Below, one piece after another: positions 3,337 through 21,677 of a stretch of DNA of 22,456 bases. Source of the stretch: a virus; IMG/VR virus record IMGVR_UViG_3300032288_000805, positions 1 through 22,456 of that record; one strand, given 5' to 3'. The stretch's first letter is position 1. Every line of letters starts with the position of its first letter. Below the pieces are notes generated by a model. It was given only the letters and a program-made list of their open reading frames with translations. It ran no database searches and was not told the DNA's origin. Made by a program: the position numbers and the translations under genes.

Positions 3337-3534
3337 TTACAGCCCCAATACTTTTTTGACCAACTCACCGGCAAAGCCTGGGCCGAGTAACACGGCAGCA
3401 ATCAACACGTAAAGCAGATATTCAATCCGCGTCATGCGCTTGTCGCCCTCGATGAATGATCTTTCAATGGCCGCGTAGCGTTCAGCACAGACGGCCTCAT
3501 GTACAGCCAGTTTGGTGGTGGTTTGTTCAGTCAT
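3337..3534 (-). CDS. Small membrane protein, hemolysin XhlA/holin-like layout (65 aa)
   Basis: The N-terminal half is an amphipathic helix (KLAVHEAVCAERYAAIERSF). It is followed by R-M-T-R-I-E and a single membrane helix (about 39-58, YLLYVLIAAVLLGPGFAG), then a short basic end. This matches the general plan of XhlA-type or small holin-like proteins, though sequence support for a named family is weak. The start overlaps the stop of the upstream ejection gene (ATGA, 3531-3534) with no clear ribosome site, so coupling is likely. Its TAA is immediately followed, in the same frame, by the next ORF. It could be a second holin or a membrane adaptor. Confidence 0.65.
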   Translation of the reverse strand: MTEQTTTKLAVHEAVCAERYAAIERSFIEGDKRMTRIEYLLYVLIAAVLLGPGFAGELVKKVLGL

Positions 3535-5105
3535 CGTGCAAGCGCGTTTTGGTTTTGTTGAACTGGGCCTAACATATTTTGGGCGCTACGCGAAAAGAAA
3601 ACTGGTTGGTTTGCCGATATACCTTCAATAACTTGAGGTATTTCACCAAGCCGCATACGATTGGCCAATCGGTTTACTTCTTGTATTCTGCGGGTTTCAG
3701 CTAAACTTTTAGCCGTCATACCTGCCGCAGCGGTATACGCGCCCAAAGGGTTCACCGCAGTAAATATAGCCGCCGCAGGCGTCATTGGAGTGAACTTACT
3801 AAGGGTACGCAGCATTGATTGCAACGTTCCACCTTTAGCCGCGTCACGAATTGCTTGCTGTTCCTCAGCAGAAAAGAAACGCATTTTCTTTTCGTTCTTT
3901 GCCAACGCTGATAATTGGTTAGCAATGTTTGCTTCTTTAGACCCTTGGGATACATCAGCGTTGTCCAAAATGTTGGAGATCATTTCCCCTTTTTTCATTT
4001 TGGAATAGTCTGCGCGGGCTTCTTTCCATGCCACCAAGGCTTTTTTATCCGCAGCAACAATTGCGCTTGGTGGCGCGTTCATTACGTAGTCATCAAATTC
4101 GTCCAATAACTGACTGGCGGCTAAACGTTCGGCGGGCTTAGTGCTCTTTGCCGCGTTACCAACAATGGCTCGTAAGGTTGTTAATTCTTGGATATTTTTT
4201 GGATTGCCTGAAGTTAATTGTGCAAGCGCGGCGTCCACGTCAGGCATGATGCGGGGGTCAAAACCAGCGGAAGAACGTAATTTATTCGCCAAGCTACCCA
4301 TGTGAGTAGTGAACTGCGCGTTGTCTAATTGAAAATTAGATTTGTCAAGAACATCGTAATTAGCTTTAGATCGCGCAGATAGGTCTTCAATTGATGGAAC
4401 ATCACCGCGCTTAACCGGACGAGTGCCCGCTACTGTTCCTGTAGCAACCCCTGTTACAAAGCCAGCTAAAGGATTGCCTGTTGCCTCAGTAACTGTTTGC
4501 CCTGCTGCGGTGGCGATCGGTGCGGTAACTATTTGACCTACAGGCCGACGCGCGGCTTCAGTTCCAATTGCTTTTAATCCTTGAACAACATTTGGCCCTT
4601 GAGCTATTGCGCGTCCCGCAGTTACAGCGCCGCCAGTTCCTGTCAAAGCGCCTGTGCTTGACTGAACAACTCGTTCAACAGGTGTTTCAGCGCGGGGGCC
4701 AGGGATCATGCTAGATATAACTTGTGACGGCAAACGAACGTTGCTATCTGTAAGTTTGTTGTACCCTTGCACTACTAGGTCAGAAGCTGGAACAGCTAAG
4801 CCGCCTGCCAAAGCACCTACGCCTGCACCTACTGGGCCACCCAAGAAAAAACCAGTTGTTGCGCCAGCCGTAGCAGGTGCTAACGCTTCGGTAGCGCCGC
4901 GAACAGCAATTCCTAATTTACGCGTAGCCTCTTCACCCATTGACAACTTAGGGGCAAGATACTGCAAAATTTCATCTGGGTTGTACCCTGCTTCTAACGC
5001 TTGTGTAATGCGTGGGTCTTTACCTTTTAAATACCCGATAACTTGATCGTCAGTATATCCAGCGCGTCGTGCTGTATTGATTTGATCGCGGAATTGGTCA
5101 GCCAT
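3531..5105 (-). CDS. Ejection (internal virion) protein, gp16 position (524 aa)
   Basis: It sits third in the ejection-protein block, where P22 carries gene 16. The N-terminus has two tandem short helical repeats of the form ARRAGYTDDQVIGYL / ALEAGYNPDEILQYL (about residues 12-50), seen in several phage internal proteins. A long Gly/Ala-rich stretch follows (about 66-115, with GGPVGAGVGALAGG), with glycine-zipper character that could insert into membrane. The rest is mostly helical with low Cys content. No enzyme motif (for example lytic transglycosylase) is visible. P22 gp16 is about 609 residues and enters the host envelope during DNA entry; a similar role is inferred from position and composition. 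AAGGGG precedes the ATG by about six bases. Confidence 0.7.
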   Translation of the reverse strand: MADQFRDQINTARRAGYTDDQVIGYLKGKDPRITQALEAGYNPDEILQYLAPKLSMGEEATRKLGIAVRGATEALAPATAGATTGFFLGGPVGAGVGALAGGLAVPASDLVVQGYNKLTDSNVRLPSQVISSMIPGPRAETPVERVVQSSTGALTGTGGAVTAGRAIAQGPNVVQGLKAIGTEAARRPVGQIVTAPIATAAGQTVTEATGNPLAGFVTGVATGTVAGTRPVKRGDVPSIEDLSARSKANYDVLDKSNFQLDNAQFTTHMGSLANKLRSSAGFDPRIMPDVDAALAQLTSGNPKNIQELTTLRAIVGNAAKSTKPAERLAASQLLDEFDDYVMNAPPSAIVAADKKALVAWKEARADYSKMKKGEMISNILDNADVSQGSKEANIANQLSALAKNEKKMRFFSAEEQQAIRDAAKGGTLQSMLRTLSKFTPMTPAAAIFTAVNPLGAYTAAAGMTAKSLAETRRIQEVNRLANRMRLGEIPQVIEGISANQPVFFSRSAQNMLGPVQQNQNALAR

Positions 5106-6651: not shown

Positions 6652-7371
6652 TTATAACTTGCTACCAGAGCCAAACCCATAATCTGCGCCTGTTGAAAAG
6701 TCGGTTGTAGGTGTGTATCCACCGCCGCCTCCACCTCTATTTTGCAACGCGTTCACCATGTTTTGGCTGTTTTGGTAATTCAAATACGTACCCAAACCGC
6801 CCGTCAAAGCGTTTGCAGTACCGACGTACCCAGATGCTCTGGCCGCAGCCCCACTGCCCATGAGATTGCCAACATTTGACGCCATAGTTTGCCCCGCACC
6901 ACCAATTTGTTGCGCTGTTGTTTGGCCCATGCCTGTCAATGACTGCAATGGGTTCAAACGAGCGGTACGTTCTGCTTGATACCTGTTGAAAGCGTTGGTG
7001 TATTCTTGGCTACCCATCTCTTGGCCGTAGCGTTGCGCGGCTTTCAAAGCCCCGCCAGAGATCAGACCGCCACGGGCAGCGGCTTGACGGTCAAGAGCTT
7101 GTTGGCCTTCCTTTAGCCGAAAAGCATAACCAGGATCTTGTTGAAATTGTTGCATCGTAAACGGCGTGTACTTGGACGCTTTGACCAGTTCCGGCAACGC
7201 ATTGACGCCGACGTCATAGAAAGGCTTTTGCCTTTGAACGTCTTCTTGGTATTGTTTGTATTGCAAGTCTGAAGCGCGATCCATTGCGCCAGCTTGTACG
7301 TCACCGGCTTTTTTTGCTGAGTATGCACCTATAAGTGTGCTACCTACAACTGCTGTTCCTACCCATGTCAT
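6652..7371 (-). CDS. Ejection protein, gp7 / DNA transfer protein p32-like (239 aa)
   Basis: This is the most recognisable ejection gene. Residues 45-150 carry the typical blocks Q-K-P-F-Y-x-V-G, F-Q-Q-D-P-G-Y-A-F-R-L-K-E-G, A-A-A-R-G-G-L-I-S-G-G-A-L-K-A and N-x-Y-x-A-E-R-x-A-R-L-N-P-L-Q of phage DNA transfer proteins. A hydrophobic N-terminus (GTAVVGSTLIGAYSA) and a Gly-rich tail with a run of six Gly near 219 flank them. P22 gp7 is about 229 aa. The start at 7371 is set by AAGGAG six bases upstream; an upstream ATG at 7419 would add 16 unrelated residues read from the cupin gene. The gene starts one base after the cupin stop. The protein is expected inside the capsid and ejected with the DNA. 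Confidence 0.88.
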   Translation of the reverse strand: MTWVGTAVVGSTLIGAYSAKKAGDVQAGAMDRASDLQYKQYQEDVQRQKPFYDVGVNALPELVKASKYTPFTMQQFQQDPGYAFRLKEGQQALDRQAAARGGLISGGALKAAQRYGQEMGSQEYTNAFNRYQAERTARLNPLQSLTGMGQTTAQQIGGAGQTMASNVGNLMGSGAAARASGYVGTANALTGGLGTYLNYQNSQNMVNALQNRGGGGGGYTPTTDFSTGADYGFGSGSKL

Positions 7372-7372
7372 A

Positions 7373-7924
7373 TCAAACTCCTTGCGCCGGTATTTGCGGC
7401 AATGCTTCAACAGATGCAATCAGTCCCAAATCGTCATACGACGGGGCGATAACTTCATGTTCAATTTTATCTAGCTCAGTTTCAGACTCAAATTCAGTTA
7501 AATGAACGGTCGTCCATATTGTGTCTTCTAACGCGTGAACCACCCGTTTCAACCCAACTTCCGAAACAAAAGTACACGGCGCTTTCAAATGTTTTTCACC
7601 AAATTCAGTGTACACAATAACTTCACCTTGCGTAATAAAATTAAGGTGCTGATGCCGATGTATCTTTCCAATTACTATTGACCCTTTAGGAAGTTTTATC
7701 TCTCTGGCGTAAGTGCAACACCCATACTTTTCGTCTTTTGGCGAAAAATAGTGTTTTAACGTGCATTCTTCAGCGATAGATTTCACCTCACCGTTAGCAA
7801 TCATGGCGTCTAACCCTGCTTGAACGGTCAAAACATTTTGCCGAAACTTAACTTTATCAACTAAGTCTGAAGACAGTTCTGCGTTTAGCATTTTGAGGTT
7901 TGACTCAACAGCAATATCGTTCAT
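7373..7924 (-). CDS. Cupin-fold protein (183 aa)
   Basis: The central part (about 75-145) has the cupin layout. G-K-I-H89-R-H91-Q-H93 precedes a Gly at position 100 and the strand E-V-I-V-Y-T-E-F-G, and V-G-L-K-R-V-V-H130 then W-T-T-V-H141 follow as the second motif. Three His plus a later His could bind a metal. The usual motif-1 Glu is not obvious. Similar proteins with H-R-H and the block F-V-S-x2-G-x-K-R-V are common between fibre and ejection genes in uncultured phages, but I know of no demonstrated function. The helical N-terminus (1-50) is separate. The gene lies one base from the fibre stop and one base from the gp7-like start, so it is part of the virion operon. Ribosome site weak (GGAA). 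Confidence 0.75.
   Translation of the reverse strand: MNDIAVESNLKMLNAELSSDLVDKVKFRQNVLTVQAGLDAMIANGEVKSIAEECTLKHYFSPKDEKYGCCTYAREIKLPKGSIVIGKIHRHQHLNFITQGEVIVYTEFGEKHLKAPCTFVSEVGLKRVVHALEDTIWTTVHLTEFESETELDKIEHEVIAPSYDDLGLIASVEALPQIPAQGV
7378..7383 (-). promoter_or_regulatory. Shine-Dalgarno site fixing the gp7-like start
   Basis: On the - strand this reads AAGGAG, six bases before the ATG at 7371. It lies in the last codons of the cupin gene and argues for the 239-aa form over a 16-residue longer one. Confidence 0.75.
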
Positions 7925-12794: not shown

Positions 12795-14006
12795 TTAGCC
12801 CCACATGCGGCAGGCCATTTGTGGACGGATTGTGCTGAAGCCATACAGAACGTCAATACGGCAAGGCATACGGTCGTTGTTGATGTCGTACTGACGAACA
12901 ACGCGCAAGCTGATACCGTTATGGACTGCGCGAGCAGCCATATCGACGCCTTGAGGCAACAACAAATCGGCGGTCGCAAAAGTGATTGCGTCTTTGTGGT
13001 AGATCAAGTTTTGAGCGTACTGAGTAGAAGCAGCGCCCACGAAAGTTACAGTACCGCCAGTTGCAGGCAGCGCGTCCATAGTAGCCAAAGCATGGTTAGC
13101 TGAGTACATAGGAGCAACGGTGACAGTCCAAGTACCAGATGAGGCAGCAACGGTAGTCAAAGCCACAAACTGGAACAAAGAGCCTGTGGATTCACGGGTC
13201 TGTGGGTTAACAGCATTGCAACCACTGATAGTGAACACGTCACCAGCATTGATTGTTGTTGACACAGAACCTTGTTCCAACAGAATGGTCGATGAACCTT
13301 CGGAAGTAACACCTGGTGTCTTGACCAATGTAGACGCAGATGCGCTACGTGAGCCAGTGGTGTGCTGCTTGATTGACTGAGACATGTTGATCTCGTCAAA
13401 ACCCAACACGCCAGTGCCCATCATGCCGTTCTTGAACTGCTTGCTGATGGTGTCGGTGGGGTTGAACAAACCTTTCATGCCTTCGACCAAACCAGCGTTA
13501 GCGGCTGGGTTGACGGTAGCGTAACGTGGTGACATCACGGCAGCGTTTTCGTTCAGCTTCTGTTGGGCTTGCAACAAGACCAAAGAAGTAGAAGGAGTAG
13601 TGCCTGGGGTGCCAACGGTGTTACCGATGGTTTTGTACGCATTGGCAACGTCAGCATCAATAGAAGATGCCAACTGGCTAATACGAGGCTTCAACACACG
13701 CTCTGCGAAGTCGTCCAATTGCATGGTCAATTCAGCAGATGTGAAGTTCACGCCGATGTGCTTTTGTGAAGCAACAGTCAAAGTGGTGAACTGTTCGTTG
13801 TCGTCCTGAACTTGCAGGGCGGCACCGTCAGTTACCAAAGCGCGGTCGGGTAAACGGATACGCAGTGTAGAACCGATCTTGGCACCTTCAACAGCGAAGC
13901 TGTCGTCGTACTGACGGTTCACGTTACGGGTGAGCACCAGGTTGTTCTCGAGAATTTCGAGAGCTTTGCGGGTGATCATGTCGATCGTTAAGATACTATT
14001 AGACAT
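12795..14006 (-). CDS. Major capsid (coat) protein, P22 gp5-like (403 aa)
   Basis: The sequence has the features of the P22 coat family. The N-terminus has MITRKALEILENNLVLTRNV and N-R-Q-Y-D-D-S-F, then G-x-T-L-R-I-R-L-P, T-V-A-S-Q-K-H-I-G-V-N-F-T-S-A-E-L-T, and a long helix V-L-K-P-R-I-S-Q-L-A-S-S-I-D-A-D. An Ig-like inserted region around 245-330 is Ser/Thr/Val-rich, and the end has D-I-N-N-D-R-M-P-C-R-I-D-V-L-Y-G-F-S. P22 gp5 is 430 aa. It forms the HK97-fold shell around the scaffold, whose gene lies 23 bases upstream. GAAGGA precedes the ATG by nine bases. Confidence 0.92.
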   Translation of the reverse strand: MSNSILTIDMITRKALEILENNLVLTRNVNRQYDDSFAVEGAKIGSTLRIRLPDRALVTDGAALQVQDDNEQFTTLTVASQKHIGVNFTSAELTMQLDDFAERVLKPRISQLASSIDADVANAYKTIGNTVGTPGTTPSTSLVLLQAQQKLNENAAVMSPRYATVNPAANAGLVEGMKGLFNPTDTISKQFKNGMMGTGVLGFDEINMSQSIKQHTTGSRSASASTLVKTPGVTSEGSSTILLEQGSVSTTINAGDVFTISGCNAVNPQTRESTGSLFQFVALTTVAASSGTWTVTVAPMYSANHALATMDALPATGGTVTFVGAASTQYAQNLIYHKDAITFATADLLLPQGVDMAARAVHNGISLRVVRQYDINNDRMPCRIDVLYGFSTIRPQMACRMWG

Positions 14007-19119: not shown

Positions 19120-19482
19120 TTATGCCAAAGATTTGAGTTTGTAGAGGGTTCGAAGATAAATCTCAACGATATTATCGATGAGTTGTTGCAATGATGAATC
19201 TGACTTGTCGGCAACTTTATACCGAGCGTTTTCAATTTCAGCCAACGAGCTTTCTAAAAACTCAATGATGTTGGAAGTCTTGGTTGCCGAATGCAAAGTG
19301 ATTGGCCCAATCAAACCATGACGGCCTTGATAGGCTTCAGCAAAATCATCTGCCGCGCCAACAATGCGGGAGTAGAAAATTTTAAGTGCCTCATGTTTGC
19401 TAAAGCTGCGGGTGTTTAAGTGAACGCTGTGCGCCACGTCCCGTGCTAGAAACAGCACACCTAAAAAATCAGCGGGTTTCAT
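19120..19482 (-). CDS. Dps/ferritin-like helical protein, DUF5856 type (120 aa)
   Basis: The N-terminal helices read F-L-x2-L-F-L-A-R-D-V-A-H18-S-V-H21-L-N-T-R-S-F-S-K-H30-E-A-L, then F-Y-x2-I-V-x2-A-D45-D-F-A-E49-A-Y-Q-G. This matches the DUF5856 phage family and looks like a shortened Dps. E. coli Dps has His51, His63, Asp78 and Glu82 with the same spacing as His18, His30, Asp45 and Glu49 here. The residue at the Dps Asp67 position is Lys34. The C-terminal helix (LQQLIDNIVEIYLRTLYKLK) would close a four-helix bundle. It starts in an ATGA overlap with the portal stop. Role unknown: it could bind metal or DNA, or the fold may have been reused. Confidence 0.72.
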   Translation of the reverse strand: MKPADFLGVLFLARDVAHSVHLNTRSFSKHEALKIFYSRIVGAADDFAEAYQGRHGLIGPITLHSATKTSNIIEFLESSLAEIENARYKVADKSDSSLQQLIDNIVEIYLRTLYKLKSLA

Positions 19483-21677
19483 CGTGGTATTCCTTGTGGT
19501 GGCATCATTTCTTCTTCAAACATCATCTCGCCCTCAGGCATCATCTCTTGCTGAGGCATCTCAGGCATTTCATTGGCCATATTTTGCGATTCCATCGCCG
19601 CAGCGACCACGCCCATGGCAATATCTTGAATCTGTTGCTCAGTCATGCCTGCCTGCACCGCAGCAATCCGCTTGGTTTCAGCTTCGTACATCTTAACTTC
19701 AGCTTCAAAATCTTTGCGTTGCATGTCTTGCATTTCAATTGACTTGCCGACGTTTTGAATCATCTGGTACATCTGTTCCATCTCTTGACCCATTGCTTGC
19801 ATTTGTTGTTCTGCTGCCTGCAACTCTGGTGACTTGTCGCCGTCTTCCATGAGTTTGGGGTCAATCGTCTTGGCAAATCGCTTGGCCATTTCTTGAGCGC
19901 CTGGCCAGTCCATGTTCTTCACAAACAAGTCGCCAGCCACAGCCCACAATTGTGGGTTGCCCTGCAACAGTTGGGCCATGGCTTCCAAGGCTTCTTGACG
20001 CTTGGTCGCGTAGCCTGGGCCGGTGGCAACAACCACGTCGTACTTGCCGACATTGGGGTTGTAGATTTTGTCGATTACGATGTCTGGGTTGTTCGGGTCG
20101 GTGATCTTGCGAACTGCTTCAGGCTGGTCAGGGTTTAACTTGACCATCTTGGTTTCACCATCCAAGCCAATGATGCGGGCCACACGCTGGGTGTCGTAAA
20201 TCTTGGGAATCAAGTCCACCAATTGACGCACGATGTGTCGTACACCACGGGCCAAGTTGTCGCCGTAGTGGTAAGTGCCCACATCACCTTCGCGCTGGCG
20301 GGCCAAAATGGCTTTGCCGCTGCGCTCGTTGGATGTCATGCCCAAAGATGCGTTGTATTGGCCGGTAGACGCTTTGATGTCCTCAGATGCACCGGCTTTG
20401 GCCTGCAACAGACCGCTGGAGGCCATCGGTGGTTGCGCCCGTGCAGGCAACGGCAACACCGCGCCTTGGCCGTCGGTGACGTCTGGATTGACCTCCAAAT
20501 ACGGCCAGTTCGTCGTATTTGCGGTCTTCCACTGGTTCTCATAACCTTCAAATTGACCACCGTAGCCAATGAACGGTGCTTTCGGTGCCAAGGCCAGCAT
20601 CTCTGCTTCTTGGCTTACCCAGTAGTTGTACATGCGCTGGGCGTCCTTGGCGTTACGCACAAGGCCAGACACGTACAAGCGGCCATCGACTTCAAACTCA
20701 TTGCCGACAATGCGGACTACGGGGATGTATTTCCCCGCCCAATCGCGTTCTTCAAGAATTTCATAACCGTTAATCTTGCAGTATTTAACTTGGACACGAT
20801 CAGATTCACGAGATTTTTTAGGCTTGCCATAAATTTCTTTCAGTTGTTTGTCCTCTAGGGTGCCTTCAAACGCGGTCACGTTCCCTGGGTACAAGTTCAG
20901 CTTTTCTTTGGTGTAGTCAAGGTAGTAGTAGTCAGCCACGCGCACAGTGTCTTCAGTCAACCACTGGCTCAAATTCTGATCCCCCACACCCAACGACTGC
21001 AAGGTGGTGATGGGCGCTGAATCGGGGTACTTGCGGGCGTATTCGTCTTTGGGAATGTCTTCTGTAATCAAACACCATTTTTGATCCGCGCCAGTCGGGT
21101 CTTGGATGGTTGGATCCATGTAGACGCTGAACGAATTGCGAATGCGGCCAATCTTGATGTCTTGGTCGAATGTGTTGTCATCGCAATATTCAGTCAGAAT
21201 GCGGATGTAACCTTCGCCGTAGGAGACTTGGTTTTCACACGCTGTATCGTACGCGACGTCAGCATCGCTGATGTATTCGATGTGCCTGACCATGCCGTTG
21301 AAGACTTCTGCAACTTCGACGTCGGCGTCGTCATTGGCTGGAATAACCTTGCCACTTGGGCGGTTCTGCCTTTGGTCATTGGTCACTTGCCTTACGTGCT
21401 GTGGCAGTTTGTTGATTGTCAGACATGGCCTGGCGTTGATCGTCTGGCCTTGCACAGAGCCACGGGTGGCCAACACGTCCGCAGGCCACTGCCAGCGATT
21501 GTCAGGTGAACCCGCGTAAAACTTCAAGTCGTCAATTTCATCTTCACGACTCTCAGATAACGCGGCGATCGCCATGTTGAGGCGAGTGCGGGCGGTGGAC
21601 AGAATGCTGGATTCGGTCTTTTTGTTGCCGCCGTTGGCCACAGCACCTGCTGCGGCGATGCCTGTGTAATCTGCCAT
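19479..21677 (-). CDS. Portal protein, P22 gp1-like (732 aa)
   Basis: Length and sequence match the P22 portal family (P22 gp1 about 725 aa). The N-terminal third has D-D-L-K-F-Y-A-G-S-P-D-N-R-W-Q-W-P, L-T-I-N-K-L-P-Q-H-V-R-Q-V-T-N-D-Q-R-Q-N-R-P and V-S-Y-G-E-G-Y-I-R-I. The middle has E-I-L-E-E-R-D-W-A-G-K-Y-I-P-V-V-R and S-N-E-R-S-G-K-A-I-L-A-R-Q-R-E-G. A C-terminal coiled-coil barrel region follows (about 590-690). The last ~40 residues are very Met/Glu/Pro-rich. It forms the dodecameric ring for packaging, tail joining and ejection. The start overlaps the previous stop by one base (TAATG). Confidence 0.93.
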   Translation of the reverse strand: MADYTGIAAAGAVANGGNKKTESSILSTARTRLNMAIAALSESREDEIDDLKFYAGSPDNRWQWPADVLATRGSVQGQTINARPCLTINKLPQHVRQVTNDQRQNRPSGKVIPANDDADVEVAEVFNGMVRHIEYISDADVAYDTACENQVSYGEGYIRILTEYCDDNTFDQDIKIGRIRNSFSVYMDPTIQDPTGADQKWCLITEDIPKDEYARKYPDSAPITTLQSLGVGDQNLSQWLTEDTVRVADYYYLDYTKEKLNLYPGNVTAFEGTLEDKQLKEIYGKPKKSRESDRVQVKYCKINGYEILEERDWAGKYIPVVRIVGNEFEVDGRLYVSGLVRNAKDAQRMYNYWVSQEAEMLALAPKAPFIGYGGQFEGYENQWKTANTTNWPYLEVNPDVTDGQGAVLPLPARAQPPMASSGLLQAKAGASEDIKASTGQYNASLGMTSNERSGKAILARQREGDVGTYHYGDNLARGVRHIVRQLVDLIPKIYDTQRVARIIGLDGETKMVKLNPDQPEAVRKITDPNNPDIVIDKIYNPNVGKYDVVVATGPGYATKRQEALEAMAQLLQGNPQLWAVAGDLFVKNMDWPGAQEMAKRFAKTIDPKLMEDGDKSPELQAAEQQMQAMGQEMEQMYQMIQNVGKSIEMQDMQRKDFEAEVKMYEAETKRIAAVQAGMTEQQIQDIAMGVVAAAMESQNMANEMPEMPQQEMMPEGEMMFEEEMMPPQGIPR

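Follow-up and report, generated by a model that had tools for sequence, protein, structure and literature searches.

The gene at positions 19120–19482 of the window (the entire 22,456-nucleotide stretch of viral DNA analysed here) encodes a 120-residue protein that is predicted to fold as a ferritin-like four-helix bundle and whose family keeps four metal-ligand positions of Dps invariant. We favour, with somewhat better than even confidence, reading this product as a virion-associated minimal Dps-type ferritin with an intersubunit metal site. The gene and its start region comprise the following features:

19120..19482, minus strand: gene of the DUF5856 / PHROG 858 Dps-like mini-ferritin, 120 aa
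19479..21677, minus strand: upstream gene of the P22-like portal protein, 732 aa (PF16510, 2e-173; PHROG 156, 1.5e-128)
19479..19482, minus strand: ATGA overlap of the portal stop and the mini-ferritin start, read from the sequence and recurring in 121 of 159 scored relatives
19490..19495, minus strand: AAGGAA, a Shine-Dalgarno-like motif in the sequence, 7 nt 5' of the ATG

The ATG of the mini-ferritin gene (19482–19480) and the TGA of the portal gene (19481–19479) are shared as ATGA. The open reading frame is real, and the overlap, with the AAGGAA motif 7 nt upstream, bears out the coupling to portal proposed in the initial annotation. The gene lies between the portal gene and an 89-aa open reading frame, followed in the same direction by a pectate-lyase-like tailspike candidate, a scaffold gene and the coat gene, which places it among the head and packaging genes of a P22-like podovirus. 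Scanning for promoters and terminators returned no more signals than were obtained in shuffles. Two other annotations in the window deserve comment. The open reading frame at 6652–7419 (minus strand) is a mechanical call with a TTG start inside the upstream frame at 7373–7924 (minus strand), which matches a short tail fiber family; because its match to PHROG 598 ("DNA ejection") begins only at residue 27, the true start is probably internal. The frame at 3531–5105 (minus strand) matches PHROG 21712 ("major head protein") at 1.8e-15, but the coat gene is clearly that at 12795–14006, so either this name or the match is doubtful, and by its position the product is more likely an ejection protein.

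Coupling to portal recurs in the lineage to which the window belongs. A P22-type portal gene is directly upstream at 161 of 163 loci, the other two being cut at contig ends, and the ATGA-type overlap is present in 121 of the 159 loci that could be scored. Among more divergent relatives, one locus (L236) has the mini-ferritin gene joined by an ATGA overlap to a preceding gene for a portal-like protein, another (L118) has portal two genes upstream, and others place the gene after a tail-fiber-like or head-decoration-like open reading frame or near GroES-like and terminase genes. The T-even and Ackermannviridae homologs are located elsewhere: the T-even gene sits in the rI lysis-inhibition operon, where the T2 homolog rI.-1 overlaps rI, and the Ackermannviridae homolog is upstream of the primase gene. 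Adjacency to the rI antiholin gene of the T4 RI.-1 type was not found for the portal-coupled window gene. The earlier statement that the protein is made with virion proteins is therefore fair for the window lineage, whereas it does not extend to the family, since the coupling is lineage-specific. Four relatives came from bacterial metagenome-assembled genome (MAG) contigs; we rejected them as host genes because these contigs also carry the P22-type portal, and we read them as phage DNA. The contigs in question (L239, L240, L241 and L242) were binned to Burkholderiales, Rhodoferax and Methylococcaceae MAGs, which is a hint at hosts. GroES-like co-chaperonin genes occur just 5' of the mini-ferritin gene in one contig (L129:4432-4980) and just 5' of portal in phage DSL-LC05 (L002:7592-7840).

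The resemblance to DUF5856 suggested initially was confirmed by profile search. Pfam PF19174 (DUF5856) matches residues 21–116 along profile positions 1–94 with E 1.2e-17 and 65.2 bits, against a curated cut-off of 34.6 bits, and the same profile matches all 53 members of our alignment of relatives (A2). PHROG 858, named "starvation-inducible transcriptional regulator", matches over the full length at 2.9e-21. By tblastn, 1,337 phage records contain a family member, and the carriers include T-even phages (T2 rI.-1), Ackermannviridae, jumbo phages and Caulobacter phages, as well as two podoviruses with the same gene order as the window. In this sense there is nothing unusual about the window protein as a member of its phage family, which is widespread and poorly described. 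Searches of NCBIfam and PADLOC gave no match, and DUF5856 was mentioned in none of the papers searched. The PHROG 858 name has been widely propagated through RefSeq phage records (e.g., L085:1462-1848).

The AlphaFold2 model of the window protein (pLDDT 94.7) is a ferritin-like four-helix bundle with helices at residues 3–23, 27–55, 72–90 and 96–119. Its top structural matches are Dps proteins (MsDps2, Z 14.0, rmsd 2.3 over 118 residues; E. coli Dps, Z about 13), in agreement with the Dps-like bundle proposed initially. The model of the LIMEstone1 relative has a similar fold (pLDDT 90.3; MsDps2, Z 14.8). Bacterioferritin and YciF score within 1 to 2 Z units of the Dps matches, and because helical bundles score high against many ferritin relatives, the structural match by itself does not set Dps apart. 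The sequence comparison is more specific. When a profile of the 53-sequence family was compared with all PDB sequences, the ten best matches were all Dps (best 3.8e-6), and a profile-profile comparison with six bacterial Dps gave 6.3e-7. The profile search suggested in the initial annotation placed Dps first. Taken alone, the fold identifies the protein as ferritin-like, and it is the sequence that points to Dps. The single window sequence had no match among PDB sequences and the family profile was needed, so the relationship to Dps is remote. Furthermore, helix BC, which is part of the Dps fold (PMC7327923), is absent, since residues 56–71 of the B–C crossover form a loop in the model, and helix A begins at residue 3 and leaves no N-terminal lysine-rich DNA-binding tail, a feature of some Dps only. 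Because both elements are absent, we filed the protein as Dps-like and not as Dps. The ExxH motifs found on helices B and D of ferritin and bacterioferritin are also absent, helix B having DxxxE and helix D a lone D103. Comparison of the window protein's model with BFVD showed that giant-virus proteins (Pithovirus LCPAC404 and Fadolivirus) share a similar predicted fold.

Conservation was assessed over the 120 columns of an alignment of 53 relatives taken from viral contigs. No columns other than H21, H30, Y37, D45 and E49 are invariant, and the same five remain so in 13 representatives with less than 60% mutual identity (29% on average). Four of the five coincide with Dps ligand positions, for which the random expectation is 6e-7, and these four are the ligand positions that do not vary among six bacterial Dps. 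The partial set of ferroxidase ligands claimed initially is therefore present, and it is conserved. The codons concerned are:

19420..19422, minus strand: His21, aligned with Dps His51, invariant (53/53)
19393..19395, minus strand: His30, aligned with Dps His63, invariant (53/53)
19348..19350, minus strand: Asp45, aligned with Dps Asp78, invariant (53/53)
19336..19338, minus strand: Glu49, aligned with Dps Glu82, invariant (53/53)
19429..19431, minus strand: His18, aligned with Dps Lys48, His in 48/53
19381..19383, minus strand: Lys34, aligned with Dps Asp67, not conserved (G 25, N 16, R 6, E 3, K 2, Q 1)
19174..19176, minus strand: Asp103 in helix 4, Asp in 50/53

The initial annotation had selected His18, His30, Asp45 and Glu49, whose spacings of 12, 15 and 4 residues equal those of His51, His63, Asp78 and Glu82 in E. 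coli Dps (numbering confirmed on the K-12 sequence). The structural and conservation checks it proposed both came out in its favour: the model is a four-helix bundle, and three of these residues are kept in every relative, with His18 kept in 48 of 53. The positions and spacing were correct as given, and so was the alternative register through an H-x-N-x-R match that it mentioned, in which His21 takes the place of His51; the preferred equation of His18 with His51 was off by three residues. Profile-profile alignment pairs H21, H30, D45 and E49 with His51, His63, Asp78 and Glu82, profile matches to solved Dps chains also pair H21 with H51, and three residues are deleted relative to Dps in the A/B turn between H21 and H30. 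Residue 1 of the window protein's model corresponds to residue 31 of E. coli Dps, and residue 2 of the LIMEstone1 model to the same residue 31; this structural register presupposes an ungapped helix A, because the alignment gives range ends only. We consequently rejected His18 as the counterpart of His51. It falls on Lys48, a residue that one Dps study assigned to a low-affinity iron site with Asp67 and Asp78 (PMC9140674), and that H18 yields the same spacing is an accident of the HxxH motif, which Bacillus Dlp-2 and MrgA have at the corresponding place. Lys34 had been placed correctly at the Asp67 position, which is acidic in 3 of the 53 relatives. Since this position varies in the six aligned bacterial Dps too, an acidic residue there is not a strict Dps criterion, and Lys34 does not mark a defining loss.

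Virion data exist for two members of the family, LIMEstone1 ORF078 and Sajous1 gp217. ORF078 of Dickeya phage LIMEstone1 was seen in virions by mass spectrometry (3 peptides, 28% coverage), and a putative late promoter lies immediately upstream of its gene (PMC3296691). Salmonella phage Sajous1 gp217, which is identical to the Kuttervirus member used in our analysis, gave 10 spectra in CsCl-purified virions and was predicted to be a ferritin by Phyre2 with 96.7% confidence (PMC10892097). Klebsiella T4-like phage virions yielded 26 and 27 spectra for a protein matched by product name only (PMC13119998), and a term search of the phiD3 structural proteome paper turned up no mention of a homolog. 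Ferritin-mediated entry was proposed for the Vi01-like phages, with reference to the Ferrojan Horse hypothesis (cited via PMC10892097). These phages infected TonB or FeoB mutants of Salmonella as usual (PMC10892097), which argues against iron-receptor-based entry as the main route.

Based on these observations, we propose a minimal four-helix Dps-type ferritin that would be made alongside the head proteins and would probably be built into the virion or attached to it, presence in the particle of this phage itself being our inference. Dps-like two-fold dimers are most likely, perhaps assembling into cages, although our models are of monomers. Along one helix, 15 residues or about 22 angstroms separate His30 from Asp45, and a single metal could therefore be held by all four ligands only in an antiparallel Dps-like dimer: His21 and His30 of one subunit with Asp45 and Glu49 of its partner would hold iron or another divalent metal. 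The likely job would be Fe(II) binding and oxidation, using O2 or peroxide, in the vicinity of DNA that is packaged or on its way in, which may limit oxidative damage to that DNA; alternatively, iron might be carried in the particle. For the window protein, metal binding and ferroxidase activity are predicted from ligand conservation; counterpoints are the lack of conservation at the fifth ligand position, that of Asp67, the rI-operon location of the T-even gene and the modest spectral counts in virion preparations. A broader version, in which tailed phages at large, T4 RI.-1 included, carry a virion mini-Dps that oxidises Fe(II) or consumes peroxide at an intersubunit iron site by packaged or entering DNA, and that in some lineages sits in or beside the portal, is doubtful at present.

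We weighed two other readings. The ferritin fold could have been reused, with no metal chemistry, in a protein that serves the structure or assembly of the portal/head region. The tight portal coupling in one large lineage, the recurrence of the gene beside portal or head/tail genes in divergent lineages, and the detection of relatives in virions all agree with this, but the sole invariant residues are the four Dps ligand positions and one tyrosine, which is hard to explain without metal, and in T-even phages and Ackermannviridae the homolog has no portal gene next to it; we consider such a role rather unlikely. We give a similarly low standing to a soluble protein that buffers iron and reactive oxygen species late in the infected cell, with its virion detection due to co-purification. 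A role inside the infected cell (of an anaerobe) has been proposed for the Dps and catalase genes of Bacteroides phages (PMC8008677), and the neighbourhood in T-even phages is a lysis module. Virion spectral counts are low to moderate, and co-purification is possible. Against this, virion detection was made by independent groups in two Ackermannviridae phages, and by product name in the Klebsiella T4-like phages; the putative late promoter of LIMEstone1 and the head-gene coupling of the window lineage also speak against it.

The functions implied by existing names fare worse. Control over when lysis occurs, the role suggested for T4 RI.-1, would suit the T2 homolog, which is named rI.-1 and overlaps rI, and over-expression of T4 rI.-1 was reported to delay the collapse of lysis inhibition slightly (Golec 2010, as reviewed in PMC6832632). 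This effect is slight and comes from over-expression, the window lineage has its gene beside portal, and RaK2 encodes an RI.-1 homolog but lacks RI, RIII and T holin (PMC3622015), which makes this function very improbable. Still less credible is a role in regulating transcription or binding DNA, which is what the names "starvation-inducible transcriptional regulator" and "DNA binding protein" imply in PHROG, in RefSeq and in some records. We looked for a DNA-binding domain or regulatory feature in the DUF5856 / PHROG 858 family and found none; the start of helix A leaves no room for a lysine tail, and the family median pI is 5.5. The regulator name probably descends from the resemblance to Dps.

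If the virion-associated mini-ferritin reading is true, a family in more than 1,300 sequenced phage records, among them a T4 gene of unclear role, could be assigned a specific biochemical role for experiment, that of a mini-ferritin in the virion whose four predicted metal ligands never vary. Phage-borne iron, and protection of phage DNA from iron-driven oxidation, would become directly testable in model phages. The idea that particles of some phages may contain a mini-ferritin did not originate with this work, as a virion ferritin was suggested for Vi01-like phages in 2024 (PMC10892097); our additions are the connection across the whole family, the right register of the ligands and the coupling to portal.

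Among the closest known systems are the virion-detected family members Sajous1 gp217 and LIMEstone1 ORF078, which are about 30% identical to the window protein but belong to large myoviruses with a different gene neighbourhood. The DUF5856 / PHROG 858 family, T-even RI.-1 included, shares with the window protein a full-length match, the same ligand positions and the same predicted fold. Dps-like genes of Lactobacillus and Bacteroides ("Gratiaviridae") phages also belong to the Dps/ferritin superfamily, and the passages of PMC8008677 consulted showed no virion evidence for their products. Compared with Dps, which has about 150–170 residues, the protein is short (about 117–120), lacks the N-terminal tail and the BC helix, has an A/B turn three residues shorter and a histidine at the Lys48 position, and does not conserve the Asp67 position. 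Common to it and Dps are the four-helix bundle and the positions of His51, His63, Asp78 and Glu82, and the ligand set starts with an HxxH-like motif as in Bacillus Dlp-2 and MrgA.
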